Shown: piece after piece, positions 24,933-40,212 of the stretch | Layout of the letters: each line of letters opens with the position of its first letter | Position numbering within the stretch: the first letter of the stretch is position 1 | Origin: a virus | IMG/VR virus record: IMGVR_UViG_3300043434_000833 | Location: 1 to 64,000 of that record | Direction: 5' to 3' (one strand) | Length of the DNA: 64,000 nt | The notes under the pieces: model-generated | What the model was told of the DNA's origin: nothing | Seen by the model: only the letters and a program-made list of their open reading frames with translations | Databases searched by the model: none | Position numbers and translations under genes: made by a program

Positions 24933-25600
24933 TATCTTTTTGTTATTATTATGATTCCGTTAAGGAAATTTATTGATTCAATATCAGTTCTACAATCCGG
25001 TTGTACTCTATTTGAAAAAGGTATTAATTTATCTTCTCGTCTGTCCCATACTGCAGGTTGATCTTCCACATTCTCAAGACCTCTAAAGTTCACATCGTCA
25101 GTCAATTTCTTAAAGTATTCCATCATAGTATTAGGTTTATTCAAACCACCACCATATGAATGAAAGTATGATGTGTGAACATCCTCAATTACATATACTC
25201 CACCCGATTTAACTGAACCGAATAAATGTTCGAATGAATAAATTACGTGTTCATTCATATGTGAACCATCGTCCAAAATCATATCGAACGGCCCATACTG
25301 TTGCCATATTCTTGATAAAAAATTACCATCATACTGTGAACCAATTTCAACCATTATTCTCGGTTCTTCGAAACTTTTACAATCAGGATTAATATCAATA
25401 CCTAATATGTTTGAACGATAAAAGTAATCTTTCCAAGTTAATAGAGATTTACCATCTAAAATTCCAATCTCCATTATGTTTATTTCTTCGTGTCTTTTAA
25501 ATGGTAAGTATTTCTCATACTTAACACAATAATTGTGTTTTTCTGACGACTTATCCGTACCATAATCAATTGCTAATCTGTCTAATGTGCTCATTTCCAA
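24932..25600 (-). CDS. class I SAM methyltransferase, macrolide/sugar O-methyltransferase-like
   Basis: Starts with the TDKSSEKHNYCVKYEKYL signature (about 15-32) typical of a group of sugar O-methyltransferases, followed by INIMEIGILDGKSLLTWKDY (motif I), ILGIDINPDCKSF (motif II) and FDMILDDGSHMNEHVIYSFE with the DDGSH metal/catalytic site. GGVYVIEDVHTSY ends the catalytic core. The end overlaps the following GT gene by one base and its start overlaps the preceding fusion gene by 10 bp. Acceptor unknown; a glycan hydroxyl is likely from context. Confidence 0.85.
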   Translation of the reverse strand: MEMSTLDRLAIDYGTDKSSEKHNYCVKYEKYLPFKRHEEINIMEIGILDGKSLLTWKDYFYRSNILGIDINPDCKSFEEPRIMVEIGSQYDGNFLSRIWQQYGPFDMILDDGSHMNEHVIYSFEHLFGSVKSGGVYVIEDVHTSYFHSYGGGLNKPNTMMEYFKKLTDDVNFRGLENVEDQPAVWDRREDKLIPFSNRVQPDCRTDIESINFLNGIIIITKR

Positions 25601-28326
25601 AAATATATCATTTGTAAAGAATTATTCGAACCCATAAACAATAGGTAAGAATTAAATCCAAGTTTATTAAGTCTTTGTATTAAATTATTTCTCAAGTCCT
25701 CGTCACGATTGAAGTGACTATGATGGTACTCCATTGCAATGGTTTTTACCTTACCTAAATTCTCATCACTAATACCAGCAAAGGCGGCGTGTTCTGCACC
25801 CTCAATATCCACCTTTAAAAAATCTATTTTATCAACTAAACCACTGTCAAAAAGGTAGTTCAACGTGTACGTTCTGACACTGTAACCTTCTTTATCTTGA
25901 TAACCAAATACATTCGACCCACCTAAGTGGTCACTTTCATATAAATTCAATTCCCCGATTTCGTGACTAACAGCCGCATTGAAAATTACTGATTTGGGAT
26001 TTGCGTTTAACGATAATAATTTAAAGTATCTTCTATCAGGCTCAAATGAAATAACTTTACTCGCCCCTTGGCTATATGCCCATCTATTGAAGATACCCAT
26101 ATTACCACCTAAATCCACCACCACGTCACCTTCGTGAATTTGTTTGACATTCCTGTCTTTGTAGTAATCATATAGGTTAAAAATTTCGTGGTAGATTGCT
26201 CGGGCCCATCCATATTTCTCCGCAATTTCAATAGTCCCACCTTCAATATTTTTAATATCCCCTAAATTTTCTAATTTATATGTATTAACATCCAACGATG
26301 TATAAAACTTCTCGGATTTATAAAAACTATCATCTCGTTTCATCTTAATAAAATCCACCATAAAGTCGGACATCTGTGCATTCTTGTTACCGTGAAAATA
26401 AAGAATTTGGTTCTTATCTTTTGGTATCACTTGGTACCCAAAAATTCTATTAAAATTCTGTGGACCTTCTTCGTTCCAAAACTTTAAAAAATGATGTTGT
26501 GTTTCATTGGTCATTCCATCATCACCATCATACGATGATGTGTCAAAGTTTGATAATGGTAAATGTTTTTTAAAATTATATTTCCATCTCATTACGTTAT
26601 CAATTCCCTCGTCGTTCCATAGATATAGACGTTTATAGTCGTTAGGATTAGTTTCCATTATGGTAACATAATGACTAACAATTTCCTCAAACCACCATTT
26701 ACATTCTTTATTGAACACGTACATACAAACGTGCATATATGGTTGTGATTTTCTTACTCCCCATTCATTTGCAACTTGTTCATTGAATAGTTGTGATTTG
26801 TTACCATTATTGTACCAACCAAAGAATTCTTCTTGTACGTGAATGTCGGATATCGGATAATTTTCAATTTCAGAAAAATACTTTTTAATTTCGTCAACGT
26901 TGTAATTAACGACAACATCACCATCTAACCAAACATAATTATCAAAACCTTCATTCAATGATTCAATACAAGCCCATTGTTTCCAATACCATTTATCGTG
27001 TTCCGAAATTTTAGGCGTGGTTATTGTTCGTTTAATGACGTTTGGATAATCAAAAGGTACTTCACAATCAACACCATAAACAATAATTTTTCTCTTAGAG
27101 AATTCCATTAACGATTGTACTAACTTCTCAATAACCGGCATATAACCAATATTACCAGTTGTTATAAATGCGAAATCATTAAATCTATTTTCCAATAAAT
27201 CTGACGCACCTTTAGCGATAGTGTCCCAATTAAAATCTTTGTGTATTCTCTTTGAATCCTCACGTGATGTAATCCACATTGCCGTATCATAATCATAAGC
27301 TTGACGCATTTTCCATCTCAAGTCGTCCCAATCAGGTTCACAATAATCACCCGGAAAATCTTTATGTTCGTGATTGGCGGGTGTTAAACCTTTAACTGAG
27401 ACAGGTACACCTTTATCTAAAGTGAATTGTAGTTGACCCCCCCAATCCGAATATAGTGATGGTGTTCCACAAGCCATCGCCTCAATCAACGGTAAATTCC
27501 AACCCTCACTTCTTGCACAAGAAATGAATGCGTGTGCAGTCTGTAAATAATTTACATATTCCTCTTGTGATGGGAACTTAACAAACTTAATATTCTTAGT
27601 GTCAATACCGTAGTGTTCAATTCTTTCCTCCGTAGTTTTTAACCCATCAGAAGGATAAGGATTCTCAACTGATGCGATTAATTCAATATCATCTTGGTCT
27701 TTAAATTCTTCCGCAAATGCTTGTAATATTTCGGTTGTCCCCTTTCTCCATTCCCATCTACCAAACATTACAAACCGTGTTTTATCTCTCTTAGGGTATT
27801 TTTTAATTGGTTTGTATAAATCAACATCAACCCCCTCTGGCACAATTGAAATTTTTTCCTTTGGGTATCCTTGTTCAACTAAACAATCAAATTGCCATTG
27901 TGATGGAACCCATACCTCATCAAAGTAAAATAGACGTCTAAAGAATTGTTCTGGGTATCTTGTAGATTCCCATACATTATAAGCGATTTTATACCCGTCG
28001 TAATTTTGATAGAAGTAATGATTATTGGTTTCAGCTAATATAATATGAACATCAGGTTTAAAATCCCCTTTGTAATCGTACATTGGATAATCCGACCTAC
28101 TATTATCATTATTAAAAAGAGTTTGAAGGATTAACATATCTTTCATCTCATCGGTGATATAAGACTCATCATCGTGAGGTGTGTTATTCATACCTTTCCA
28201 ACCCTTACCGATTGTTGAATTTCTTACCTTAACTGTGTGGTATTTGTTAAGTGCACAAAAAAAAGACTTTGCGTGATTGGCATATCCCGTTGTGCCAATA
28301 AATGAAGTGTGAGCTAATATATTCAT
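25591..28326 (-). CDS. three-domain fusion: GT4 glycosyltransferase, GT-A domain, FkbM methyltransferase
   Basis: 911 residues with three separate enzyme modules. (1) Residues 1-380: GT-B transferase with IVPEGVDVDLYKP (161-173) and EX7E motif SEGWNLPLIEAM (273-284). (2) About 385-680: GT-A-like part with WLDGDVVVNYN (DGD 468-470) and a WNDEGIDNVMRWKY element. (3) About 690-911: FkbM-type methyltransferase with DLGGNMGIFN (738-747), FEPDRRYFKL (761-770) and FLKVDIEGAEHAAF (836-849). A single protein could add a sugar, a second sugar and a methyl group. Downstream neighbours are a methyltransferase, an O-heptosyltransferase-like protein and the fibre gene. No sign of frameshift; modules are contiguous. 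Confidence 0.88.
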   Translation of the reverse strand: MNILAHTSFIGTTGYANHAKSFFCALNKYHTVKVRNSTIGKGWKGMNNTPHDDESYITDEMKDMLILQTLFNNDNSRSDYPMYDYKGDFKPDVHIILAETNNHYFYQNYDGYKIAYNVWESTRYPEQFFRRLFYFDEVWVPSQWQFDCLVEQGYPKEKISIVPEGVDVDLYKPIKKYPKRDKTRFVMFGRWEWRKGTTEILQAFAEEFKDQDDIELIASVENPYPSDGLKTTEERIEHYGIDTKNIKFVKFPSQEEYVNYLQTAHAFISCARSEGWNLPLIEAMACGTPSLYSDWGGQLQFTLDKGVPVSVKGLTPANHEHKDFPGDYCEPDWDDLRWKMRQAYDYDTAMWITSREDSKRIHKDFNWDTIAKGASDLLENRFNDFAFITTGNIGYMPVIEKLVQSLMEFSKRKIIVYGVDCEVPFDYPNVIKRTITTPKISEHDKWYWKQWACIESLNEGFDNYVWLDGDVVVNYNVDEIKKYFSEIENYPISDIHVQEEFFGWYNNGNKSQLFNEQVANEWGVRKSQPYMHVCMYVFNKECKWWFEEIVSHYVTIMETNPNDYKRLYLWNDEGIDNVMRWKYNFKKHLPLSNFDTSSYDGDDGMTNETQHHFLKFWNEEGPQNFNRIFGYQVIPKDKNQILYFHGNKNAQMSDFMVDFIKMKRDDSFYKSEKFYTSLDVNTYKLENLGDIKNIEGGTIEIAEKYGWARAIYHEIFNLYDYYKDRNVKQIHEGDVVVDLGGNMGIFNRWAYSQGASKVISFEPDRRYFKLLSLNANPKSVIFNAAVSHEIGELNLYESDHLGGSNVFGYQDKEGYSVRTYTLNYLFDSGLVDKIDFLKVDIEGAEHAAFAGISDENLGKVKTIAMEYHHSHFNRDEDLRNNLIQRLNKLGFNSYLLFMGSNNSLQMIYFWK

Positions 28327-28358: not shown

Positions 28359-29075
28359 TCAACATATTCGTGACATATACCTCTTTAAATTTGGGTGAAT
28401 TTTGGTTAAGTTTATTTGCTTCTCATATGGTAACATTGAAATTTTAAAATCGTTTTCAGGTTTGAATGTTGGTTTATAATCCATTATTTCGAAAGGGAAC
28501 TCAATAATAAAATCGTAAATCAAATTCCAATACTTTTTATCGGGTAACTTGTTTGAGTGTCCTTTAATTTGGACTATCGTATGTTTAACTAAATCAAAAA
28601 CAATAATAATATGGCTGATGTTATTTAAATCCGTAGATTCCCTCAATTCAAATGTTGTGTTACCGTACCTTACTCGTCCACAATCTTTCATTCTAATCAT
28701 AGACTCAATACAGAATAACTTCCCAATATCGACCCAATAATAACCGATACCGTTATTTCGATAATCACATACAATTTTATTTTTATCGGTAAAATTATAT
28801 GTATTATATTTTTCTTTATAGTCATTGTACCATCTTTCCCAAATTGGTATGATATTATTTAAAGGAATGTTATTTATATCACCATATGTAATATCATCAT
28901 TAGAGTCGATGTAATTACATAATGCAAAAATGACATTATTTAATTCTACTTTAGAAAAGTTATTTAAATCATTGATATCCGTTTTTAATTTATTCAATAC
29001 TATTAATCCGATTTCTTCCCCCAACATTTTAATAATATCGCCTTTTCGTTTTAATAAATTTTTTAACGTTATCAT
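28359..29075 (-). CDS. hypothetical protein, 238 aa
   Basis: No recognised family. Lys/Asn/Ile-rich, with a beta-strand-like segment YYWVDIGKLFCIESMIRM near residues 114-131 and ending KRYMSRIC. Its start lies in an ATGA overlap with the SGNH gene upstream (AATAATATGA). Being last in this run before the fusion gene, it may be a transport or assembly factor for the same glycan, but nothing in the sequence says so. Confidence 0.65.
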   Translation of the reverse strand: MITLKNLLKRKGDIIKMLGEEIGLIVLNKLKTDINDLNNFSKVELNNVIFALCNYIDSNDDITYGDINNIPLNNIIPIWERWYNDYKEKYNTYNFTDKNKIVCDYRNNGIGYYWVDIGKLFCIESMIRMKDCGRVRYGNTTFELRESTDLNNISHIIIVFDLVKHTIVQIKGHSNKLPDKKYWNLIYDFIIEFPFEIMDYKPTFKPENDFKISMLPYEKQINLTKIHPNLKRYMSRIC

Positions 29076-29731
29076 ATTATTTTTTTAGATTGTGATAATG
29101 AGTACAAATAATGTGCAAAATTGAAGTGTCCATTAAATGAGAAATGTGTATCATTTATTGTCCCTTGTGTATGGTCTTTTATTGTTTGAAAAGACCTATA
29201 TATATTATCATCATCTTCTAAAGACCACATAAAGAAAAATTTAATTTTTTTATCTTTTTTAAATCTGTCTCTTATGTAATTAAAACGTTTTTTATGTCTA
29301 TCTTTATAAAATTGGTGATTAGAGAAATGGTATTGGAAATTAACAATTGATTCAATAATCTCATTATTTTCTTTTTCGGCATCACTACTTAATATCTTAT
29401 CCGCACGTTCATACATCGATAATACGTTATGAACATTGTCACCTATTGGTACGTCGATTCTCCCAAAAAGTGTCATATTAATGATTACAATATCATTTTT
29501 ATCAATATCATCATAGTTGTCTAAGATACTATCAAAAATGTAATCATTTGATGCACCGTTTTTACCTAAATTTTTTACACTATAATTTAACAACTTACTT
29601 AAATGATTTGGCCATATATCGTCACCTTCCTTTTTGAATTTTTGATAATCTTCACGTGTATTCGAAGGGCAATTATTATTACAACCGTGACCAAAAGTCA
29701 TTGAATCCCCAAATGTCCAAAGTGTGTTCAT
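29072..29731 (-). CDS. SGNH hydrolase-like protein (GDS variant A)
   Basis: SGNH/GDSL-fold proteins are esterases, acyltransferase partners or O-acetyl modifying enzymes. Seen: block I FGDSMTFGHG (residues 7-16, Ser10 nucleophile), Gly/Asn regions KNLGKNGASNDY and a block V-type DTHFSFNGH (Asp-x-His) near the C-terminus. One of seven paralogues in the window. Its start shares one base with the upstream sulfotransferase stop (ATTTAATG). Acetyl-ester chemistry on the glycan is the most likely role. Confidence 0.75.
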   Translation of the reverse strand: MNTLWTFGDSMTFGHGCNNNCPSNTREDYQKFKKEGDDIWPNHLSKLLNYSVKNLGKNGASNDYIFDSILDNYDDIDKNDIVIINMTLFGRIDVPIGDNVHNVLSMYERADKILSSDAEKENNEIIESIVNFQYHFSNHQFYKDRHKKRFNYIRDRFKKDKKIKFFFMWSLEDDDNIYRSFQTIKDHTQGTINDTHFSFNGHFNFAHYLYSLSQSKKII

Positions 29732-30279
29732 TAAATAATGGTTTTTATTTTCTTTTCATTAAACTCCTTATTGTTAGTATGAATGTACATATCAAAAAGT
29801 GTTTGTTTTAAATCAATATTCAAATAATGACAAATTTCGATTAATTCTTCGCTAGGTGTGTCAGTGTATATATCCTCATAAAAAAAGATTTTTTTATCTT
29901 TAGTTATTTCATCAAAAACACTATTCCAAGATTCTATATTTTTTTTTGCCACGACATCACTAACTTCTTTAGTTAAATCTGGTTGTTGAAAATCAGACAT
30001 AGATTTTATCGTTTCGTTAATGTTTCTTCGTTTAATATATATTACCTTATCAAAATAACCGATAATTCTTTTTGAATGCTCAAACATAGTTTCACCATTT
30101 TTAAATAATAAATTATCAGTCAATACCGTTTTCACAACACATTTATCACCCCAAATGAAATCGATAGTTTTTTTAAATGGTTCATACGATGAATGGTAAT
30201 TAGATGAGACCGATAAACGTATAAAATTAAATAAACTACTGGTTCCCGATCTCGGCATACCAAATATCAATATCTTCAT
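29731..30279 (-). CDS. sulfotransferase-like protein, 182 aa
   Basis: PAPS-dependent sulfotransferases transfer a sulfuryl group to hydroxyls of glycans. Seen: the 5'-phosphosulfate-binding loop FGMPRSGTSSLFNF (residues 6-19), a YEPFKKTIDF region and the 3'-phosphate-type helix YIKRRNINETIKSMSDFQ around 96-113. 182 residues is a compact single domain. It is followed by overlap-coupled genes (ATTTAATG) including a GT-like and a SEKTFKP-family protein. Two other sulfotransferase-like genes lie at 32225 and 33341, with PAPS-synthesis candidates at 37562 and 37952. Confidence 0.75.
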   Translation of the reverse strand: MKILIFGMPRSGTSSLFNFIRLSVSSNYHSSYEPFKKTIDFIWGDKCVVKTVLTDNLLFKNGETMFEHSKRIIGYFDKVIYIKRRNINETIKSMSDFQQPDLTKEVSDVVAKKNIESWNSVFDEITKDKKIFFYEDIYTDTPSEELIEICHYLNIDLKQTLFDMYIHTNNKEFNEKKIKTII

Positions 30280-30977
30280 TAAATTAATGTTTTTTTAATT
30301 AAAAATCGACCAGTTATTGTTTTTTCTGCCATATGACAAAGTCCATTTTCATTTAAATCATCGTATGATGGATTTTCATTAAATAAATAATTCACCTCAT
30401 TAAAGTATGTGTTAACATACTGTTGGTTTAATGTGATTGGGGGTACGTCATTATATCTTTTTGTGAAAAAATCATAATTATCATCAATAACGTTTATAAC
30501 ATCAAGATAAGCACAATTTATTTTAGTAAATTGTTCGGTGGCTATTATTGATGTGTTGTTTAATTCATTTATTTGAGTGTCGTCATTAAGATACTTTTTA
30601 AAAATTTCCGTAAAAGTCTCAACTTGGTTTTCATCAATTTTACGTTTATAACATACATTTAATTGTTCCGATTTTATAAGTTTAATTAATTTATCAAAAT
30701 CTTCTATAATTAAATCATTATCTAAATGTATGAAAGGTTTATTTATTAATGATAACACTTTTAATTTTGGATAAGACCATAATGTATTAATTTTAAATCG
30801 ATTATCGATGTCAAACGGTTCCCATTTATAATCTAATTTGGTATTTAAAAAATAATTTTTGTCAGAATAAATTGTCGGTATTACTCCGGTTTTATTTAAA
30901 TTAAAAATTGTATATTTTAAATAAATTTCGGTTATTTCTTTTAATCTAACAGGTAAATAGGTGAATATTACATCCAT
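30279..30977 (-). CDS. putative GT-A-like transferase (DUF6734-like), 232 aa
   Basis: The pattern FIHLDNDLIIEDFD (residues 82-95) has the DxD arrangement of GT-A transferases within a strand-helix pair, and NKPFIHLDNDL is like DUF6734 proteins I recall from Bacteroidetes, but the overall fold was not confirmed. The remainder is Tyr/Asn-rich. Overlaps both neighbours by 1 bp in TAATG junctions. Function in the same glycan pathway is inferred from position only. Confidence 0.5.
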   Translation of the reverse strand: MDVIFTYLPVRLKEITEIYLKYTIFNLNKTGVIPTIYSDKNYFLNTKLDYKWEPFDIDNRFKINTLWSYPKLKVLSLINKPFIHLDNDLIIEDFDKLIKLIKSEQLNVCYKRKIDENQVETFTEIFKKYLNDDTQINELNNTSIIATEQFTKINCAYLDVINVIDDNYDFFTKRYNDVPPITLNQQYVNTYFNEVNYLFNENPSYDDLNENGLCHMAEKTITGRFLIKKTLI

Positions 30978-32224
30978 TATATGAGTGGTTGTTTTTCTGT
31001 TATTTCTTTTTTAAATCCCTTAATAACTATATCTAATAATGAATTATCATTCTCAATCATTTTAATTAATTTTAAATGTGCCAAATCTGACCAATTCTTA
31101 CATAATTTGAAATTATTTTCAAAATCTTTCATAAATGTTTGTACAAAATTAGCAAACAATTTACCATTTGTTTTACATTTTAATGATTCACCGTAAAATG
31201 GATGTGGAGGTAAATCTAACATTTTTTGTAAGATTTGTAGTGGATACTCGTGTGTTGAGATAAATGGTATACCTGATAATATTAAAATAAATGTTTTTTC
31301 CGAAAGGTACTGTGAAGTAAACTGATATCTACTCCAAGACCAACTTTCACAAAGAATTTGCATCTTTGCCTTTGGTAATACTCTGAAAAACATATCCATA
31401 TAACCTTTATGGTTATCTATATATGTTAAATCAGAAAAATCATTATTACCAACAACTGAATTTGTATTTATATGGTTTAACAAATTCGTATTTTCTAAAT
31501 AATCTGGGTTCTTTAATGAATCACTTCTTTGTATTAAAATTTTATTATTCTTAATTTTATCTAATTCGATAGCAATTTCTACCCTATTTTTTTTATGATT
31601 CTTAAAACTATACATTAAATCATAATCAAAATTTAGTTTATCGTAAATTTGTTTAAATTCATAAAACCATCTGATTCCAATAATTTCATTCCATTGAAAC
31701 ACCGTATTAGTTAATGAATAGTATAAATTAGAGTGCTTTGTTTCGATGTAATCATTTAAAAATATGTTGTCGGTCACAACATAATGATTACCTAAATCAT
31801 TTAATAAGTTTTCAATTTCCAACCACTTATCATTTTGATTGAAGGTATCGTTAGTTTGTAAAATCTTTTCCGTTCTAAAATACGTTATTATCCATTTTTG
31901 ATTTACAGGAACGTATTTTAATAAATTATTATAAATGGTTAAGATTTGTTGAGTTTCTCTTTCCATATAATGATTATCTCTTTCTATGTGTCCAATTTTA
32001 GGGTCTTCTTGACCATAAAAAAGTGCCGTAAAATAATCTAATAAATGAAAACCGTCATTCTCAAAACTGATTTCTTGTTTAAAAATAAATTCTATATTTG
32101 TGTTTTTGTATTTACAAAATACACTACCTACTTTATCGGTGATAAAAAATCGTCTCTCAGTTGTGTTATGAGCAATTTTATAAAAAATAGATTTATTATA
32201 GTAATGATGGATATAAAATTTCAC
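30977..32224 (-). CDS. SEKTFKP-family protein (divergent member), GTG start, 415 aa
   Basis: Divergent relative of a family repeated six times in this window. Seen: the shared pattern SQYLSEKTFILILSGIPFIS (about residues 307-326), matching the 'SEK(T/S)FKP....P(F/L)I' signature, followed by a hydrophobic strand and helical tail. The family tail 'DESYDxxxxxxxR' is degenerate here. The pattern recalls the acceptor/donor-binding region of GT10-type fucosyltransferases (TEKL...VPIVLG), so a GT-B role is possible. GTG start directly abuts the preceding stop (ATAATATAG then GTG). Confidence 0.6.
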   Translation of the reverse strand: MKFYIHHYYNKSIFYKIAHNTTERRFFITDKVGSVFCKYKNTNIEFIFKQEISFENDGFHLLDYFTALFYGQEDPKIGHIERDNHYMERETQQILTIYNNLLKYVPVNQKWIITYFRTEKILQTNDTFNQNDKWLEIENLLNDLGNHYVVTDNIFLNDYIETKHSNLYYSLTNTVFQWNEIIGIRWFYEFKQIYDKLNFDYDLMYSFKNHKKNRVEIAIELDKIKNNKILIQRSDSLKNPDYLENTNLLNHINTNSVVGNNDFSDLTYIDNHKGYMDMFFRVLPKAKMQILCESWSWSRYQFTSQYLSEKTFILILSGIPFISTHEYPLQILQKMLDLPPHPFYGESLKCKTNGKLFANFVQTFMKDFENNFKLCKNWSDLAHLKLIKMIENDNSLLDIVIKGFKKEITEKQPLI

Positions 32225-32743
32225 CTATATTATTTTTTTAACATATTTGTTTCTGTCACCCTTTCTCAAACGACTTTCATCATTTGGATTGTATAAATCT
32301 TCATAATATGTTATAGGAATATCTAATTCATTTGATAAAGTGTTCAATATCTCATTCCATTTAATTATGTTATTATTACATAACTCATCAATCGGTGTTG
32401 GTTCCCATAAATAAGGGTCATTCGATGTAAATCCGTTTTTTCGATTGTACACCGAGTATGCGTGACTTTCAGCACAAGCTTTTAAATCTTTTCTACTTAA
32501 TAATATAATTTCATCAAATAATTTTGAAAATTTAATTACCCAATCAATGTAGTTATCGCAATTTTCAGGTTTTTGTACATCAACAATTGTTTTTAAAACA
32601 ATGTTATCCATATTATCCTTATATGTAACTCGATTGGTTCCATCGAAAGGTTCAAATAAGGGTCTTAAATTTTTGGAATTTGCAATTGAATGTAATAAAG
32701 ATGTTGATCCAGTTCTTGGTAACGAAATGATTAATATTCTCAT
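32225..32743 (-). CDS. sulfotransferase-like protein, 172 aa
   Basis: PAPS-dependent sulfotransferase fold. Seen: LIISLPRTGSTSLLHSIA (residues 4-21) with the phosphosulfate loop, LFEPFDGTNR, and SRKDLKACAESHAY for the 3'-phosphate region. Its similarity to the 182-aa sulfotransferase at 29731 suggests a paralogue, but the two have diverged. The start overlaps the oxygenase gene upstream by 4 bp (ATGA). Substrate unknown. Confidence 0.75.
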   Translation of the reverse strand: MRILIISLPRTGSTSLLHSIANSKNLRPLFEPFDGTNRVTYKDNMDNIVLKTIVDVQKPENCDNYIDWVIKFSKLFDEIILLSRKDLKACAESHAYSVYNRKNGFTSNDPYLWEPTPIDELCNNNIIKWNEILNTLSNELDIPITYYEDLYNPNDESRLRKGDRNKYVKKII

Positions 32744-33309
32744 AGTAAAGTATTGTTAACTTTTAGTTTCGGATAATTAAAATCAGTCTCCGTCATCCAA
32801 ATATTTAAAGCAAATCTATTTCCCTTGGTCACCGGTAACACTCCGTGATAAGTTTGTGAACCATTAAATGATATTAAATCACCCAATTTAAGGTTAAATG
32901 TTTCTATACTATCTAACGTTTCAAAATGAAATGATGGGTTTTTATCTTTACATAAAGCAAATTGACCTCCTTCATAACCATCCGATAAAACAATAACAGT
33001 TGTTAGTTCACTTGTTTTATCTTTATGTAAACTAAGATAGCGACCATTGTAGTAAGACGTTAAACTAATATTAAAATTTTTTAATTTAAAATCTCCGTAA
33101 TTGAACCATAATTTAAATTCATTACTTGTATATTTCTCAGTTAATCTGTTAATTATTTCTTGTTTAAAGGAGTCATCATAAATGCGTCTACAATCCCAAG
33201 ATTCTGATGGGTTATATGAAAAGGGTTCTCCGTATTCTAAACAAAAATCAATAATTGATTTAGACTCATTTTTGTCACAAAACCCACTATTAATCGAATA
33301 CTCAATCAT
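32740..33309 (-). CDS. 2-oxoglutarate/Fe(II) oxygenase, prolyl-4-hydroxylase-like
   Basis: Non-haem iron dioxygenase; hydroxylates or oxidises a substrate using 2-oxoglutarate. Seen: the iron-binding His95 and Asp97 in YLSLHKDKTSELTTVIVLS, the distal His155 in GSQTYHGVLPV and Arg165 in KGNRFALNIW, which binds 2-oxoglutarate. The double-stranded beta-helix region fits residues 80-172. It is small (189 aa), as in bacterial P4H/Tpa1-like proteins. A protein or sugar substrate is possible; the adjacent sulfotransferases make a hydroxylated glycan or peptide plausible. Confidence 0.85.
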   Translation of the reverse strand: MIEYSINSGFCDKNESKSIIDFCLEYGEPFSYNPSESWDCRRIYDDSFKQEIINRLTEKYTSNEFKLWFNYGDFKLKNFNISLTSYYNGRYLSLHKDKTSELTTVIVLSDGYEGGQFALCKDKNPSFHFETLDSIETFNLKLGDLISFNGSQTYHGVLPVTKGNRFALNIWMTETDFNYPKLKVNNTLL

Positions 33310-33340
33310 AAAAATTTAATTTTAATACTGTTGTAACTAA

Positions 33341-34075
33341 CTATATGATTGACTTAGTTCTTTTGACCGAACCATCAATATACTTATCAACGAATTCAAC
33401 TAATTCAGGTGTTCGTGTTACGGCACAATAATCTAATTTAGTTTTATTTTTGTACATTAACTTAAATTCAATATTTAATTTTTTTGACATATATTCTTCA
33501 AGTTCTGTTAATTTATCAAAACTAAATTGTTTGACATTCACTTTGTCATTTGTTATCCATTGATATTGTGAAACAAAACTAAAAATATGTAATTCATACT
33601 GCTCGATGAATTCTTCGTCTATTGGGTGTTCTTTTGATATCTCTAATTTATCAAGTAATTTAATAAGTAATGACCTTCTTGTTTTTCGTGAATTGTAAGC
33701 CATACTAAATTCCTGATAATTATCTTTTATAAAACTTATCACAAAATCATTTCCGATATTTTTTATTTTTTTACTTAACTCATCACTAATTGAATGAGTT
33801 AATAACTCAATAAAATATTTCCAAGCCGATATGAACCTATCAGTAGAATCCCTAATGATACTTATATATTCAAAATTTGTACCAAATCTATCTACAATTT
33901 GATTTATAGTTGAATGGAGGTGCTTTTGTGGATTTTTACTACCTAACTTTATAGAATTTTCCCAAATTTTACTTGGGTATTTTAAATCTAAACCATAATT
34001 AATACAAGTATCCTCAACTGACCAAGAGGCGTTTTTTGGTATTGGTATGAATACCACTTTATCATTAATAATCAT
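33341..34075 (-). CDS. Sulfotransfer_2-like sulfotransferase, 244 aa
   Basis: Distinct branch of the sulfotransferase superfamily related to carbohydrate sulfotransferases (HexA/uronyl-2-O- and C4ST-like Sulfotransfer_2). Seen: the phosphosulfate loop VVFIPIPKNASWSVEDTC (residues 7-24) and the 3'-phosphate motif YISIIRDSTDRFISAWKYF (70-88) with Arg75 and Ser83. This is the typical PKxxxxS ... RDPxxRxxSxY arrangement. It is separated from the Hint-like gene by a 38-aa gene. Likely acts on a hydroxyl of a glycan. Confidence 0.8.
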   Translation of the reverse strand: MIINDKVVFIPIPKNASWSVEDTCINYGLDLKYPSKIWENSIKLGSKNPQKHLHSTINQIVDRFGTNFEYISIIRDSTDRFISAWKYFIELLTHSISDELSKKIKNIGNDFVISFIKDNYQEFSMAYNSRKTRRSLLIKLLDKLEISKEHPIDEEFIEQYELHIFSFVSQYQWITNDKVNVKQFSFDKLTELEEYMSKKLNIEFKLMYKNKTKLDYCAVTRTPELVEFVDKYIDGSVKRTKSII

Positions 34076-34085
34076 TTATTTTTTT

Positions 34086-34202
34086 TTATTGTGTCACATC
34101 CGCATAAATAAGTGTTGCCACTTCTTGCATTATGCTGGCAACATTAGTATTAGTTGTTGAATCGGTTAATACGATTTCACTTAAAATTATTTTCGGTTTC
34201 AT
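34086..34202 (-). CDS. small protein, 38 aa, after the Hint-like gene
   Basis: MKPKIILSEIVLTDSTTNTN then VASIMQEVATLIYADVTQ. Found by reading the gap between 34076 and 34226. It is 24 bp downstream of the Hint-like protein gene in transcription order and begins in the ATATAATATG context. No cysteine or membrane segment; a peptide partner or accessory factor of the Hint-like protein is conceivable but unsupported. Confidence 0.55.
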   Translation of the reverse strand: MKPKIILSEIVLTDSTTNTNVASIMQEVATLIYADVTQ

Positions 34203-34226
34203 ATTATATTATGTTATATTTAAAAT

Positions 34227-35756
34227 TTATACTTTACCTCCTTGATCACAGAAACTACAAGCACTACAATACCAAGTGGCACACATATAAGATGCACACC
34301 ACGACGCACAAATACCGTTGTGTTGGACAAACGCCAAACCTAATGTCTCATCTGCCATAAGTAAGAAGATGTCATTTGTTTCCACGTTTAAATCGTATAT
34401 AGTACGAGTAATATAAATAACGTCTAAGTCAACAATTTTTGATTTGGTTAATGTATTGTTCACATAATCAAAAAATACTATAGAATCGTTTATTCTAAAT
34501 CTATTGGTGTATGCAAATGTTGTTTCTAAAGTATCATATTCTTCAATCATCATTGCACTTCCTGGTAAATCTTCATAAACTATACCATTTTCCAAAGTAA
34601 CTCTAATCATCAACGATTCTTTTACTTGACTACCTAAGTCAATAACCGTTGACGACCCTACTGAAAATGATGTTAAATCAGCAGATAAGGTTCCTGAATT
34701 CACATCATTAACATAAAGAATTTCTCCCGTTTCAGATGTTTCATTTTCCGGAACCCACGTTAAACCAATCGTTTTAACGGTGTCATTTACCAAAATTTGA
34801 TTTGGGTACTTGAATGTTCCGTCAGAAAAAAGAATAGGTGTGTCGTCGTCTAAGATATATCCAGGACCCATTCTTGTGGTTGGGGATTTACTCATCCATA
34901 ATGGTCTGGCGTTTTGGTTCATTTTACCATTAGAATCATATGTTGTTTCCCAACTATTTGATTTAACAGGTGATGTCATTATATATGACCCTAAATGTAA
35001 ACAATTAAGGTTACCACCATATAAAATGTCTAAACTTCTTATTACCCCCATTTTTTCATTAGCAATATTATCTGGATGAGTATGGTATTCTTCCATATAT
35101 TCAGACTCACTTAATGAACTTTTTAAAGTCTGTAATGATTCTAAAGATGTAATTTTATAAAATTTCGGATAAGCAACATAATTGGTATTTGGAAATCTAG
35201 TTTTAACTATATAGTTTGGTGCATTACCATCTGTGGTGTGAAGTGCGTTTAATTGGTCTATATTCAAATCCGGTGTAGTATTAGAATTATAATACACGTT
35301 AGGTGAATATTCTTCATTTTGGATTAATTTGTGAAAATTAACCTTATCTTTTGTATATTCTTCATCAACGACAGCGGTTGTGTCATAAGAAGTTCTAATT
35401 ATCAAAATTCCGTCCCCATCTTCAACATATGGTACCGTAACTGAGTTTTTAGCAACTTCATAATGTGTGAACGTACCGTTAATTTCGGACATTATAGTCG
35501 ACATCTTATCTTTTAAGCTAATATTTACGGTAACAGTATCAAATACGTTATCTAATTCACTACTAAGAAAATTACCGTCTGTCGATATAAAATGTAGGTT
35601 CGTTATTGAATTATCCAATAAAAATTGTTTAAACGATACCCAATCTAAATCTGGCACTATTGAGTTATGGACATCAACGTTCGTGTTAGTCTCAATTATT
35701 CGTAAATTACCGTCAGAATCCTTTAAGAAGTCCGTTCCAAGTATGAGTGCTTTCAT
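34227..35756 (-). CDS. Hint-like domain protein with Cys-rich C-terminal tail, 509 aa
   Basis: Hint domains of inteins and bacterial intein-like proteins catalyse protein splicing or self-cleavage. Seen: an N-terminal ATP-grasp-like phrase GTDFLKDSDGNLRIIETNTN (residues 7-26); a beta-rich middle; a Hint-like block at about 300-480 with ILDDDTPILFSDGTFKYPNQ and NDTVKTIG (N-terminal block), a strand pattern MIRVTLENGIVYE, and the C-terminal block TIYDLNVETNDIFLL ... GLAFVQHN ending at Asn480. The block-A Cys is absent (Ile301 or Tyr300 occupies its place). After HN comes a 29-residue tail with six cysteines (483, 487, 492, 497, 500, 503) ending QGGKV; only one other Cys (252) exists. A TATTTATA element precedes the gene. 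Cleavage after Asn480 would release a Cys-rich peptide. Confidence 0.7.
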   Translation of the reverse strand: MKALILGTDFLKDSDGNLRIIETNTNVDVHNSIVPDLDWVSFKQFLLDNSITNLHFISTDGNFLSSELDNVFDTVTVNISLKDKMSTIMSEINGTFTHYEVAKNSVTVPYVEDGDGILIIRTSYDTTAVVDEEYTKDKVNFHKLIQNEEYSPNVYYNSNTTPDLNIDQLNALHTTDGNAPNYIVKTRFPNTNYVAYPKFYKITSLESLQTLKSSLSESEYMEEYHTHPDNIANEKMGVIRSLDILYGGNLNCLHLGSYIMTSPVKSNSWETTYDSNGKMNQNARPLWMSKSPTTRMGPGYILDDDTPILFSDGTFKYPNQILVNDTVKTIGLTWVPENETSETGEILYVNDVNSGTLSADLTSFSVGSSTVIDLGSQVKESLMIRVTLENGIVYEDLPGSAMMIEEYDTLETTFAYTNRFRINDSIVFFDYVNNTLTKSKIVDLDVIYITRTIYDLNVETNDIFLLMADETLGLAFVQHNGICASWCASYMCATWYCSACSFCDQGGKV

Positions 35757-35777
35757 ATTATTATTTTTTCTTTTTAT

Positions 35778-35785
35778 TATAAATA
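35778..35785 (-). promoter_or_regulatory. TATTTATA motif before the Hint-like gene
   Basis: On the minus strand TATTTATA is 21 bases before the ATG at 35756, identical in spacing to the fibre gene (22764-22771). The small gap between the preceding oxygenase stop (35796) and the Hint-like gene otherwise holds A-rich leader sequence. Confidence 0.35.
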
Positions 35786-35795
35786 TAGATATTCT

Positions 35796-36437
35796 CTAAA
35801 TTAGACTATTTATTTTTTTCGCATTTTCAAACCCAACATTTGCGGCAATTACTACCCTATTTTTAGTTGAGTTTGGTGATTTATTGGGTGAATGTGGTAA
35901 ATACCCTTTCATAACCAATAAATCCCCTTCTTGTGGTAAATAGTAATATCGTTGATTATCACTACCTTCAACTATTAAAGTACCTTCATTATCTTTTAAA
36001 TTATCCGGCATTTGAACGTAATAAACAAACGTATATGTTGGGTAAAACGATTCTATTGATTTTTGTAAATCGATATGATTATGTAATGTGACAATATCAT
36101 CCTTTCTAAAATTTTCTTGTTTTGGTTTTCCCTTTTTAACCACGTTAACCCACGAATTTACATTAATTCTATTAAATGGTGATTCATCCTCACATCTTAA
36201 TTTAAAACAAACCTCCATACCAAATTTAATTATTTCTTCTATGAAGTTATTTGGTTTCATTTCAGTTTGGAAATCAAAACTAGACCAATCATCCATATAT
36301 GTGTAATTATCTTTAGGTGAATATGGTGCAGATTTTAGAAAAATGTCAACATCATTCAAAACATTTTTTAATAATACATCGGATTCTGTTTTTGTTTTAT
36401 ATATGATAACATCCTCCTCAAAAATAATTTTTTCCAT
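35796..36437 (-). CDS. 2-oxoglutarate/Fe(II) oxygenase-like protein, 213 aa
   Basis: Second dioxygenase of the region. Seen: the metal site His121 and Asp123 in TLHNHIDLQKS, a beta-helix strand TYTFVYYVQMPDN, and EGTLIVEGSD...LLVMKGYLPHSPNKSPNS with His182, then Arg194 in TKNRVVIAANVGF. It fits a double-stranded beta-helix enzyme without other domains. Ends in -NSLI and the stop is 39 bp before the Hint-like ATG, so both could be one operon or the Hint gene may have its own promoter. Substrate unknown. Confidence 0.7.
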   Translation of the reverse strand: MEKIIFEEDVIIYKTKTESDVLLKNVLNDVDIFLKSAPYSPKDNYTYMDDWSSFDFQTEMKPNNFIEEIIKFGMEVCFKLRCEDESPFNRINVNSWVNVVKKGKPKQENFRKDDIVTLHNHIDLQKSIESFYPTYTFVYYVQMPDNLKDNEGTLIVEGSDNQRYYYLPQEGDLLVMKGYLPHSPNKSPNSTKNRVVIAANVGFENAKKINSLI

Positions 36438-36441
36438 ATTA

Positions 36442-36726
36442 TTATATTATACTCTTTTTTTTAATTTTTAAATGTTTCATATAATCCTGTTCTATAAAAT
36501 TCCACTTACCTAATGGGCAAGTACCATATTGATCTGTGAATATTTTTTTATTAATTGGACATCCACAGGGTCCACAATAATGTGACCACTCTTTATTATG
36601 AATAACTTCCTTTCTAAATTCACAATTAGAACAAATATCAATTCTCTTTTTAGCCAAATTTAATTCAACATCATTTGGGTTAAATGATGTTATCCAAGAA
36701 TTGATTATTTCTATTGGGTTGAACAT
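36442..36726 (-). CDS. zinc-ribbon-like protein, 94 aa
   Basis: Four-cysteine metal-binding pattern: CSNC (residues 32-35), then CGPCGCP (51-57) and CPLGKW from Cys70, fitting a zinc ribbon. The N-terminal part is helical. Such small proteins occur in phages without known function; binding of a nucleic acid or protein partner is possible. Ends KKKSII in the ATATAATAATATG junction context. Confidence 0.7.
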   Translation of the reverse strand: MFNPIEIINSWITSFNPNDVELNLAKKRIDICSNCEFRKEVIHNKEWSHYCGPCGCPINKKIFTDQYGTCPLGKWNFIEQDYMKHLKIKKKSII

Positions 36727-36733
36727 TGTGATA

Positions 36734-36943
36734 TCATTTTTTAAGTCCGAATTTAATCCATTTATACCATATTCTTTCGTGTAGGTAATATTGTATTGGT
36801 TTATAAATTAATTCCGCAACCCCAAAAGCCGCACCAACCTTTACTGAACCACTTATTAACCACATCAATAAAAAACCAATTACCGTACTAACAATACGGT
36901 ATGAAATGGTTTTTGCTATGTGTCTTTTTCTTTCAACTATCAT
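36734..36943 (-). CDS. DUF2061 membrane protein, 69 aa
   Basis: DUF2061 members are small two-helix membrane proteins; from memory they are often located beside cysC/cysD/cysN sulfate-activation genes. Seen: KRHIAKTISYRIVSTVIGFL, a helix, then VKVGAAFGVAELIYKPIQYY and HERIWYKWIKFG, which is the family pattern. Here it sits three genes from an APS kinase gene, consistent with that association. Function of the family is not established. Confidence 0.8.
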   Translation of the reverse strand: MIVERKRHIAKTISYRIVSTVIGFLLMWLISGSVKVGAAFGVAELIYKPIQYYLHERIWYKWIKFGLKK

Positions 36944-37551
36944 AATATTTTTTTAGGTTCATTCGCATAAAAATCAACACCGTTAAATTTACTATGATAC
37001 ATAACATATTGATTATTTTGGAACATTCTATGATTTTTCCACGAATCGGGCCAAGTTTCCACTTCCTCATCGGTAAACGATATAATTTCAGAATTTAATC
37101 TTATTTCCGGTCGATAATATGCATAAAATGAAAGTACGGTACCTTCTTTACAATTTGATTTAACTTTATCCATAAAGTAAGGTAAATTACCGTCCGTATC
37201 AGTGTCAAATAAAATACCATCAAATTTTCTATTTTCTAAAGGTAATACATTATACCAATCACCAAGTATCACTTCAACATTACGTTTATCTTTAGCCCAT
37301 TCTAATGCCCTTTCATATTGTATTGGATGAATCTCAATTATAGTGTGAGATGTGACATTTGGATTACTTTGAATGAAATCGGCGGAAATGTGCATTCCAA
37401 ATCCTAATTCTAAAATATCTCCACCGTTTTGTGTACTGATTTCCGCCTGTCTTTTCATAATCTTAGTTTCACAAACGTGCATTATGTGATGATTATTTTC
37501 GGGATTAAAAATATAATCATCGGTAATAATAATTTTTTCGTTACCTTTCAT
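36940..37551 (-). CDS. SAM-dependent methyltransferase (GAMT/RMT2-like), 203 aa
   Basis: Start chosen at ATG 37549-37551 because the longer form would overlap the upstream gene by 77 bp; this gives MKGNEKIIITDDYIFNPENN. Seen: motif I GGDILELGFGMHISADFIQS, followed by IIEIHPIQYERALEW (motif II) and the FDGILFDTDTDGNLPY site. The arrangement resembles guanidinoacetate/arginine N-methyltransferase-like proteins, but the acceptor is unknown. The gene overlaps the DUF2061 start by 4 bp (ATGA). Confidence 0.75.
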   Translation of the reverse strand: MKGNEKIIITDDYIFNPENNHHIMHVCETKIMKRQAEISTQNGGDILELGFGMHISADFIQSNPNVTSHTIIEIHPIQYERALEWAKDKRNVEVILGDWYNVLPLENRKFDGILFDTDTDGNLPYFMDKVKSNCKEGTVLSFYAYYRPEIRLNSEIISFTDEEVETWPDSWKNHRMFQNNQYVMYHSKFNGVDFYANEPKKIL

Positions 37552-37561
37552 TTTTTTGTTT

Positions 37562-37948
37562 TTATTTATTTTCTTCAGTAAAATATTCGATGGTATCTCC
37601 GTTTGAATCGATATAACCATTGCGAATGTCCGTACCACTTATTTTTGCAATTTCACTTGGTGGTTCGTGATAGATAACATCATAACCAACACCTCTACCA
37701 TAGTTAATACTTTCAATATCGGGAATAATTGATATCTGTACTCTATGTGAATTATCTTTAAAGAATTGTTCCTCAGATAAATCCATCATTACTTGTTGTG
37801 CGGTTTTTGGATTATTTTCGTCAGTTGGTACATTTCTAATTGCTACCCATACGTCTTTCCCCTTCTCTAATTGTTGATTGATAAGCCACTCGTGACCTTT
37901 ATGCCAATTTTGCCAACGTCCTACGTATAACGCGTACTTTTTACTCAT
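37562..37948 (-). CDS. HxGH nucleotidyltransferase (NMNAT/cytidylyltransferase or ATP-sulfurylase-like), 128 aa
   Basis: Small alpha/beta-phosphodiesterase-type nucleotidyltransferase. Seen: YVGRWQNWHKGHEWLI (residues 8-23, HKGH 16-19) and ISGTDIR (103-109), the ISxTxxR motif that closes the nucleotide site. Candidates are an NMN/choline/glycerol-phosphate adenylyl- or cytidylyltransferase, or a reduced ATP sulfurylase, whose family also uses HxxH and SGTxxR. Its place 3 bp from the APS kinase gene and close to sulfotransferase genes makes the sulfurylase reading attractive, but this cannot be decided by eye. Confidence 0.75.
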   Translation of the reverse strand: MSKKYALYVGRWQNWHKGHEWLINQQLEKGKDVWVAIRNVPTDENNPKTAQQVMMDLSEEQFFKDNSHRVQISIIPDIESINYGRGVGYDVIYHEPPSEIAKISGTDIRNGYIDSNGDTIEYFTEENK

Positions 37949-37951
37949 TTT

Positions 37952-38386
37952 TTAAATTTTTAATTTTCTTCTTAGATTTAAGAATGTATTATATTCACTA
38001 CAATCTGTAGTATCACAATCAACAAAAAAGGTTAATGGTTCCTCATAATTTACGTGAAATTGTTCTCTACCTCTTATATTTATGGTATGAACATAAATTT
38101 CCACTAAATCATCACCCATCTCAGTTTTAAATTGTTCTCTTTGATCCCTATATGGTGAAACTAATGAAACAATAACCGTGTACCCTTTGTGATGTAAAAA
38201 TTTTGCCAGTATCTGAGCCTTTTCAATATTTTTACGTCTACCCTCTTCAGAGTAGTCCTTATTCACAAAAATTTCACGGATGTCGTCACCATCTACCACC
38301 ATAGATTTATTTGGGAAACTTGCTTGTATCCAAGACGCTAACGTTGTTTTACCTGCTCCGGGTTGTCCGGTTAACCAATATATCAT
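37952..38386 (-). CDS. adenylylsulfate kinase-like protein (CysC type)
   Basis: APS kinase phosphorylates adenosine 5'-phosphosulfate to PAPS, the sulfuryl donor for sulfotransferases. Seen: P-loop WLTGQPGAGKTTLASW (residues 4-19), the DGDDIR motif (32-37) that binds APS, and the arginine-rich helix SEEGRRKNIEKAQILAKFLH. At 144 residues it lacks the full DPKGLYxKAR-type lid segment of enzymes such as E. coli CysC (201 aa), so it is short but has the core. Start at ATG 38384-38386; the in-frame TTG at 38422 is rejected. It sits 3 bp upstream of the nucleotidyltransferase and within reach of three sulfotransferase genes. Confidence 0.85.
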   Translation of the reverse strand: MIYWLTGQPGAGKTTLASWIQASFPNKSMVVDGDDIREIFVNKDYSEEGRRKNIEKAQILAKFLHHKGYTVIVSLVSPYRDQREQFKTEMGDDLVEIYVHTINIRGREQFHVNYEEPLTFFVDCDTTDCSEYNTFLNLRRKLKI

Positions 38387-38423
38387 ATACCAATAATATA
38401 GTCTTTTTTTTTTAAAAACCAAA

Positions 38424-38541: not shown

Positions 38542-40212
38542 TTATTTTTGTTTATATATTACATAATTACCCATAACTAATAAATCCATATCAGTGTCAA
38601 AAAACGTATCCACCGCATCTTTAGGTGTCAATACCATAGTTTTATCTTTAACGTTGAACGAAGTATTCAATAGTATTGGGTATCCACTTATTTGTTCAAA
38701 TTCTCTTAATAATTCATATATTGCGGTGTGTTTATACACAGTCTGTACTCGAGCGGAACCATCTACGTGAGTCACCGCTTTCAATATGTCACGATATTCC
38801 TTCTTAACTTTCACAACTTGATTCATATATGGTACATCGTCTGTCATTTCAAAGAAATCGTGTTGTCTTTCTTTAATCACCATCGGTGCGAAGGGTCTAA
38901 AACCTTCTCTTTTCTTAATTACTTTGTTAATTCTATCTTTCATACCATCTAACGTTGGGTTAGCTAAAATTGACCTATTACCTAACGCTCTCGAACCAAA
39001 TTCAATATGCCCGTGAAACCATCCCACAACATTACCCTCGTTAAGTTTCTTAGCCACATAATTTCTTAGTCCTTTTTCTGTATTAAATTTTTTGTAATGT
39101 GTACCTTTTATCGCTCTTTGGATGTCGTCATAAAGATACTGCGGTCCCAAAAATGGATTTTTTGTGATTTTACTTTTAATTTTTCTCTCTTGTATCAAAT
39201 AGTGAACTACCGCACCAATTGCCGACCCCGCATCTGACGGTGCCGGTGGTATCCATAGACTATTAAAATCCGAATCGGTGGTTATTTTACCATTTGCAGT
39301 TCCATTATAGGCACAACCTCCACTTAAACAAAGGTTATCACTCTTTTTAATCAATGATAATGTTTTTAAAATATCAAACAAAACTTCCTCATAAACTTTC
39401 TGAACCGCAGCTGCCAAATCTTCGTGAACAGTAGTTAATGGTTCTTCAGGTAATCTTTGATCCACCCCCAACAATTCGGGTAATTTTTCGTTAAACATAA
39501 TTTTATCCGACCTATCCCAACAAAAGACATCCATATTACATTTCAAACCACCATTTTTAAATGTTATTAACTCTCTAACTTTATCGATATAATTTTCCGG
39601 TTTACCATATGACGCCAAACCCATTACTTTATATTCACCCTCATTTGGTCTAAAACCTAAAAACGAGGTCATAGCGGAATAATATAGTCCAAGTGAATGT
39701 GGATACTTTGCTATTGTATGATATTTTATACCATTATAATCCGCAAAACCATACGACATAGTGTCTTTTTCACCAACACCGTCTACGGATAAACACGTAG
39801 ACTCCTCAAAATTAGATGTGTAAAATGAATAATATAAATGTGATTCGTGATGTGTCGAATAAAATACGTTAGGTGACAATTTTTTAAGTTTGTCGTCAAC
39901 TTCTTTTGCTACGTTTCTAATTTTTAAATATGACCTTAATGAATATAATGGATTCTTAAACATTTGTGGTTTAATATTCTCCATTACCCTTTCATATTTT
40001 AACTTAGGATTCTCATAATAACAAACCGCCTGTAGATTCTTATCTGTTATTTTATAGTGTTTATAGATATACTCTAATACCTTCTCTGGAAAAGAACTAT
40101 CGTGTTTGATACCTGTAAATTTTTCTTCTTCACAAGCGAAGATTAATTGGTTATCTCTAAAAAGACAAACTGATGAATCGTGATAAAATGCTGATATTCC
40201 TATTATATACAT
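38542..40212 (-). CDS. NodU/CmcH-family carbamoyltransferase
   Basis: Transfers a carbamoyl group from carbamoyl phosphate to a hydroxyl of a sugar or antibiotic. Seen: ISAFYHDSSVCLFRD start, the HHESHLYYSFY metal-binding motif near residues 119-130, the ATP-type region VDGVGEKDTMSYGFADY, GEYKVMGLASYGKP (Gly-rich nucleotide loop), GGCAYNGTANGK, and the C-terminal domain GSRALGNRSILANP and GFRPFAPMV. Length 556 is typical. Adds an O-carbamoyl modification to the glycan pathway; one of several tailoring steps in this region. Confidence 0.93.
   Translation of the reverse strand: MYIIGISAFYHDSSVCLFRDNQLIFACEEEKFTGIKHDSSFPEKVLEYIYKHYKITDKNLQAVCYYENPKLKYERVMENIKPQMFKNPLYSLRSYLKIRNVAKEVDDKLKKLSPNVFYSTHHESHLYYSFYTSNFEESTCLSVDGVGEKDTMSYGFADYNGIKYHTIAKYPHSLGLYYSAMTSFLGFRPNEGEYKVMGLASYGKPENYIDKVRELITFKNGGLKCNMDVFCWDRSDKIMFNEKLPELLGVDQRLPEEPLTTVHEDLAAAVQKVYEEVLFDILKTLSLIKKSDNLCLSGGCAYNGTANGKITTDSDFNSLWIPPAPSDAGSAIGAVVHYLIQERKIKSKITKNPFLGPQYLYDDIQRAIKGTHYKKFNTEKGLRNYVAKKLNEGNVVGWFHGHIEFGSRALGNRSILANPTLDGMKDRINKVIKKREGFRPFAPMVIKERQHDFFEMTDDVPYMNQVVKVKKEYRDILKAVTHVDGSARVQTVYKHTAIYELLREFEQISGYPILLNTSFNVKDKTMVLTPKDAVDTFFDTDMDLLVMGNYVIYKQK

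Follow-up and report, generated by a model that had tools for sequence, protein, structure and literature searches.

BIL domains undergo cleavage instead of splicing and do not require a nucleophile at the +1 position (PMC7664689). In polymorphic toxins, the PT-HINT domain is thought to release a variable C-terminal module (PMC3482391), and inteins can show C-terminal cleavage when the cyclisation of the asparagine comes before branch formation (PMC4031507). Here we describe a phage gene whose product, P0001, is probably a self-processing precursor: judged from its sequence, a Hint (hedgehog/intein) domain would release a hypervariable mini-protein with paired cysteines in a single cleavage step. 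The gene lies in a stretch of 64,000 nucleotides, called the window in the following, which belongs to a virus record of 71.7 kb (Table 1).

The open reading frame starts with ATG. Residues 303-314 of the protein are DDDTPILFSDGT, residues 453-466 are IYDLNVETNDIFLL and residues 477-480 are VQHN, followed by a tail of 29 residues. Six of the seven cysteines are in this tail (C483, C487, C492, C497, C500 and C503, spaced C-x3-C-x4-C-x4-C-x2-C-x2-C) and the seventh is C252. A sequence-only reading, which had proposed that the tail may be released at Asn480, had given the coordinates, the blocks, the asparagine, the tail length and the cysteine spacing exactly, the frame being on the minus strand. 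Its estimate of about 3.1 kDa for the tail agrees with the 3102.6 Da calculated for residues 481-509 in the reduced state. Searches of P0001 against Pfam, PHROGs and NCBIfam gave no significant match.

The fold was approached with an AF2 model built from 14 sequences. The mean pLDDT was 45 overall, which is weak, and mostly 50-83 in the Hint part. When the model was compared with the PDB by Foldseek, the first 36 matches were all Hint or intein structures, with BIL2, hedgehog and (mini-)inteins in the lead (E 8e-6 to 1e-3). In the viral library BFVD, the Hint part matched phage proteins, several of which are named Hint. A profile of 62 members searched against the PDB found BIL2 first (E 0.005) and also the class 2 KlbA intein (E 0.007). 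The intein profile PF14890 (Intein_splicing), proposed earlier as a check, matched weakly in 4 of 14 relatives and not in P0001 itself. The 62-sequence profile is independent of the model, and we take the Hint fold of residues 299-480 as established by computation. The Hint-type block of the sequence-only reading is thereby backed by model and profile; a non-Hint fold was examined as well, and a Hint fold was found instead.

The first searches for relatives gave 13 proteins of 60-77% identity, a range in which 14 close relatives are counted in all, a sub-alignment scan reached 37% identity, and a mixed-alignment scan found 100 relatives, of which 80 were kept. Together with the close set these make up 64 distinct proteins, down to about 25% identity. 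About 100 loci were detected in IMG/VR (tblastn, E 1e-3), and the precursor family is carried by many uncultured phages. One contig of 211 kb has two whole-gene paralogues with different Cys-rich tails (L104 and L147). Among the INPHARED phages, no relatives of P0001, of the Hint-tail part of L009, of L096 or of L099 were found and the N-terminal consensus gave a match at chance level only; at the sensitivity used, the family was absent from 50,697 annotated phage records, and no relatives were found in genome_contigs. The His-Asn pair and the Cys-rich tail, which starts a few residues after it, are kept in 64/64 distinct members, and the Hint part always ends in EHN, QHN or THN. Homologues without the HN end or without the Cys tail would speak against the sequence-only reading; none occurred among the 64.

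The active-site positions were assigned by alignment to the KlbA intein with the block nomenclature of PMC4031507. At the Cys1 position, recognised as missing in the earlier reading, P0001 has Ile301, and the family has K, I, S, D or F and never Cys. The positions B:7 and B:10 are Leu397 and Ser400 and are not conserved as Thr and His in the family. F:4 (Asp455) is variable, and F:13 (Asp462) is His in 25 of 62 members. G:6 and G:7 are His479 and Asn480, and both are invariant in 62/62 sequences. With D396 they are the sole invariant residues of the Hint domain (301-480) in these sequences, whose identity ranges from about 25 to 77%. Conservation among the 14 close relatives was 0.82 for residues 381-480 versus 0.64-0.72 for residues 301-380. 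The +1 residue is Gly in P0001, and the other members usually have Tyr, Gly, Ala, Pro or Val there; Ser occurs in 2 of 64 members, and Cys or Thr in none. A proline at this position, found in seven members, may slow the cyclisation of the asparagine. Set beside a class 1 splicing intein, P0001 has the terminal His-Asn but neither Cys or Ser at position 1 nor Cys, Ser or Thr at +1; set beside a BIL domain, it has the Hint fold with HN and no +1 nucleophile but not the Cys1 for N-terminal cleavage. Since Cys1 and the +1 nucleophile are both absent, the anatomy rules out splicing and leaves room for one step of Asn cyclisation. We infer that the predicted site is best read as one that sets the tail free by this single cyclisation.

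Most of the invariant positions of the precursor are in residues 1-298 (D9, E22, N24, R121, D125, D131, D137, K185 and R240 in 62 sequences). An ATP-grasp-like character had been noticed here. Residues 9-49 gave a weak profile match to ATP-grasp biotin and pyruvate carboxylases (E 0.4-1) and resemble their E-x-N metal-binding element, whereas Pfam and RimK searches for ATP-grasp were negative, the pLDDT of the domain was too low and its Foldseek matches were not significant. An ATP-grasp domain with its E-x-N element moved to the N-terminus is thus a weakly supported lead.

The tail is 26-55 residues long in most members and longer in others. Cysteine makes up 16.5% of the tail versus 0.5% of the body. 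The tails have 6 (n=33), 8 (n=25), 12 (n=3), 7 (n=2) or 10 (n=1) cysteines, an even count in 62/64 members, which are related sequences with inflated P values. The earlier reading had allowed either disulfides or metal binding. Of the two, disulfides are the better match to an even count, and the product is most likely a mini-protein cross-linked by paired cysteines.

The tail is also hypervariable. In 37/37 pairs whose aligned identity was 80% or more, its nucleotide identity was lower than that of the body. Between L002 and L003, differences made up 20/72 in the tail versus 30/1434 in the body (P = 4e-15), and tail and body also differed for L010 and L011 (P = 3e-5); for L004 and L005 this was not significant. 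The dS was 0.54 in the tail versus 0.05 in the body. Since the dS is raised, recombinational exchange would be part of the cause of the hypervariability, and the pattern points to swapping and not to point-by-point diversifying selection. Positive selection of point mutations as the sole cause is ruled out by the same rise in dS. Within the limits of the records, a diversity-generating retroelement could be excluded: no reverse transcriptase or template repeat was found, and the tail has synonymous and third-position changes. RVT_1 was absent in the 9 records checked, and no repeats or other copies of the tail were present in the genomes G001 and G002 or in the window.

A micro-ORF for 24-49 residues lies directly downstream of the precursor gene in every complete locus checked. 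It was present at 14/14 close loci, beside L064 and at all 55 loci listed. At least three types exist, which are distributed by clade, and the type of 38 residues was seen in the viral collection only beside the precursor gene.

The genes around the precursor include those for putative tailoring enzymes (Table 1), and radical SAM enzymes are also encoded there. Non-homologous 2OG oxygenases, sulfotransferases, SGNH hydrolases and radical SAM proteins have a C-terminal tag, K-[TS]-[LI]-[IL]-COOH, in common. The tagged clusters extend over 29072-37638 in the window, 115207-123444 in G001 and 64491-71534 in G002, and the flanking genes are without the tag. Within these boundaries, which were drawn after the motif was seen, 27/28 genes end with two aliphatic residues versus 29/457 elsewhere in G001, G002 and the window; in 48 other loci, a looser form was found in 218/258 downstream versus 38/187 upstream genes, all counts stemming from related sequences with inflated P values. 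The precursor itself has no tag in 14/14 close members. An origin of the tag as a by-product of a promoter or a translation start was rejected. Because its codons differ and it is present in genes without an overlapping neighbour, the tag is likely a protein-level signal, for example a docking motif.

Some further genes of the window were noted. Glycosyltransferases and nucleotide-sugar genes occur in it, and a 911-residue fusion of a glycosyltransferase with an FkbM methyltransferase is encoded at 25591-28326. A small membrane protein of the DUF2061 type at 36734-36943, recognised via its L147 homologue, recurs upstream of the precursor, next to the gene of APS-kinase type. The PHROG label 'DNA endonuclease (V)' matches both 2OG-Fe(II) oxygenase-like proteins of Table 1 and looks wrong.

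Table 1. Features of the P0001 locus (positions in the window)
Feature	Position	Strand	Basis or remark
SGNH-hydrolase-like, family F2, tag ..SKKII	29072..29731	-	family member L009 6683-7504 matches Lipase_GDSL
Sulfotransferase-like, family F3, tag ..VKKII	32225..32743	-	N-terminal motif, no Pfam match
2OG-Fe(II) oxygenase (PF13640), tag ..NNTLL	32740..33309	-	
Sulfotransferase-like (PF03567), tag ..RTKSII	33341..34075	-	
Micro-ORF of 38 aa directly downstream of the precursor, MKPKIILSEIVLTDSTTNTNVASIMQEVATLIYADVTQ	34086..34202	-	
Putative self-processing precursor P0001, 509 aa	34227..35756	-	ORF, 13 close relatives, 64 distinct members
Hypervariable Cys-rich tail, residues 481-509	34230..34316	-	
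His479-Asn480, predicted cleavage site (after Asn480)	34317..34322	-	invariant 62/62
Predicted Hint domain, residues 299-480; Ile301 at Cys1 position	34317..34862	-	AF2, Foldseek PDB, BFVD, profile vs PDB
Block F, residues 455-462: Asp455 (F:4), Asp462 (F:13)	34371..34394	-	KlbA intein alignment, family columns
Conserved enzyme-like N-terminal domain, residues 1-298; ATP-grasp possible, with E-x-N element at N-terminus	34863..35756	-	
2OG-Fe(II) oxygenase-like, tag ..KKINSLI	35796..36437	-	
Zn-ribbon-like small protein, tag ..KKKSII	36442..36726	-	
APS-kinase-like (family F14), putative PAPS supply	37952..38422	-	synteny; APS_kinase match of L007 homologue
Carbamoyltransferase (NolO-like)	38542..40212	-	

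In the mechanism that we propose, a Hint domain with the splicing half disabled and the C-terminal half kept comes after a conserved enzyme-like N-terminal domain. Asn480, assisted by His479, would cyclise to a succinimide and the bond between residues 480 and 481 would break. This would set free the hypervariable Cys-rich mini-protein, which has 29 residues in P0001. The tail would be the part that is exposed to selection and exchange, and the N-terminal domain, the micro-ORF and the tagged enzymes are its probable partners in maturation or delivery. The wider proposal of a phage system for hypervariable cysteine-paired mini-proteins, in which the one-step Hint precursor is combined with a dedicated micro-protein partner and shuffled tag-docked tailoring enzymes, is tentative and rather doubtful as a whole.

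Cleavage would not occur if the Hint domain were a catalytically dead scaffold and the tail remained on the protein as a knob with disulfides or a bound metal. The loss of Cys1, B:7 and B:10 and the variable F:4 would agree with this, but His-Asn is invariant in 62/62 sequences while nearly all else in the domain varies, and a dead scaffold is quite unlikely. That the tail is a Zn or Fe-S site is suggested by the C-x2-C-x2-C spacing in the P0001 clade. The family keeps the parity of the cysteines and not their spacing, and counts of 6 and 10 misfit tetra-Cys sites, which makes a metal site very improbable.

Two further readings concern the role of the tail. As part of a virion adhesin, it would be a receptor-binding tip or a fibre part, with the Hint and S74 cleavages as maturation steps and a hypervariability that tracks the host receptors; the predicted Hint cleavage is compatible with this. 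In nine members, the Cys-rich part is immediately followed by an S74-like intramolecular chaperone (PF13884, E 1.3e-4; 'virion structural protein', E 4.7e-11). Eight of these belong to a single clade and the ninth, L006, is nested in the P0001 clade; the members with S74 would be as consistent with a virion part as with a free peptide. In addition, the tagged cluster in G002 ends at a fibre-like gene for 2184 residues, and some of the phage proteins matched by the Hint part in BFVD have names that refer to fibronectin III and PASTA domains. However, S74 is absent from P0001 and most members, the N-terminus shows no signature of a fibre or baseplate and has invariant residues like those of an enzyme, and in most loci no structural gene directly adjoins. 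An adhesin is a serious possibility, which we regard as having about one chance in three. A RiPP-like secreted phage peptide, of the kind that the sequence-only reading had considered, excised, sulfated or hydroxylated and aimed at competing phages or bacteria, would account for the nearby sulfotransferases, 2OG oxygenases, radical SAM enzymes and APS-kinase-like gene and for tails rich in Tyr, Ser, Pro and Gly. Against it, no exporter, leader or immunity gene was recognised, and the enzymes may act on glycans, given the sugar genes in the window; this role is unlikely. As an observation on its own, an S74 chaperone is joined to a P0001-type tail in L006 (6420-6743) and was apparently acquired by recombination.

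If P0001 and its relatives do release the tail, they would form a class of self-processing precursors that is widespread in phages and has a conotoxin-like pattern, in which a conserved precursor carries a hypervariable Cys framework. They would offer a natural one-step module for C-terminal Hint cleavage and a source of disulfide mini-proteins, and the tag shared by unrelated enzymes would give phage genomes a docking code that can be tested.

Compared with the known systems, the family resembles S74 fibre proteins in the nine members that end in S74 after the Cys-rich part, unlike P0001 and most others. A possible ATP-grasp domain, a peptide product and tailoring enzymes close by are reminiscent of graspetides and other RiPPs, but ATP-grasp is not established, there is no separate leader-core precursor and Hint replaces the protease. 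The class 2 KlbA intein (2jmz) likewise has no Cys1 and its block F aligns, but it splices via a +1 nucleophile, whereas the +1 residue of the P0001 family is never Cys. With PT-HINT, P0001 shares a constant N-terminal part and a Hint domain just upstream of a variable C-terminal module; it differs in the short Cys-paired tail, and neither a toxin domain nor a secretion module nor an immunity gene was recognised, the tail and the whole protein being without a family match in the toxin-domain test. BIL domains, with BIL2 as the best structural and profile match, have the same Hint fold and need no +1 nucleophile. Unlike them, P0001 has no Cys1, so that N-terminal cleavage is not expected, and combines in phages an enzyme-like fusion with a constant Cys-rich tail.
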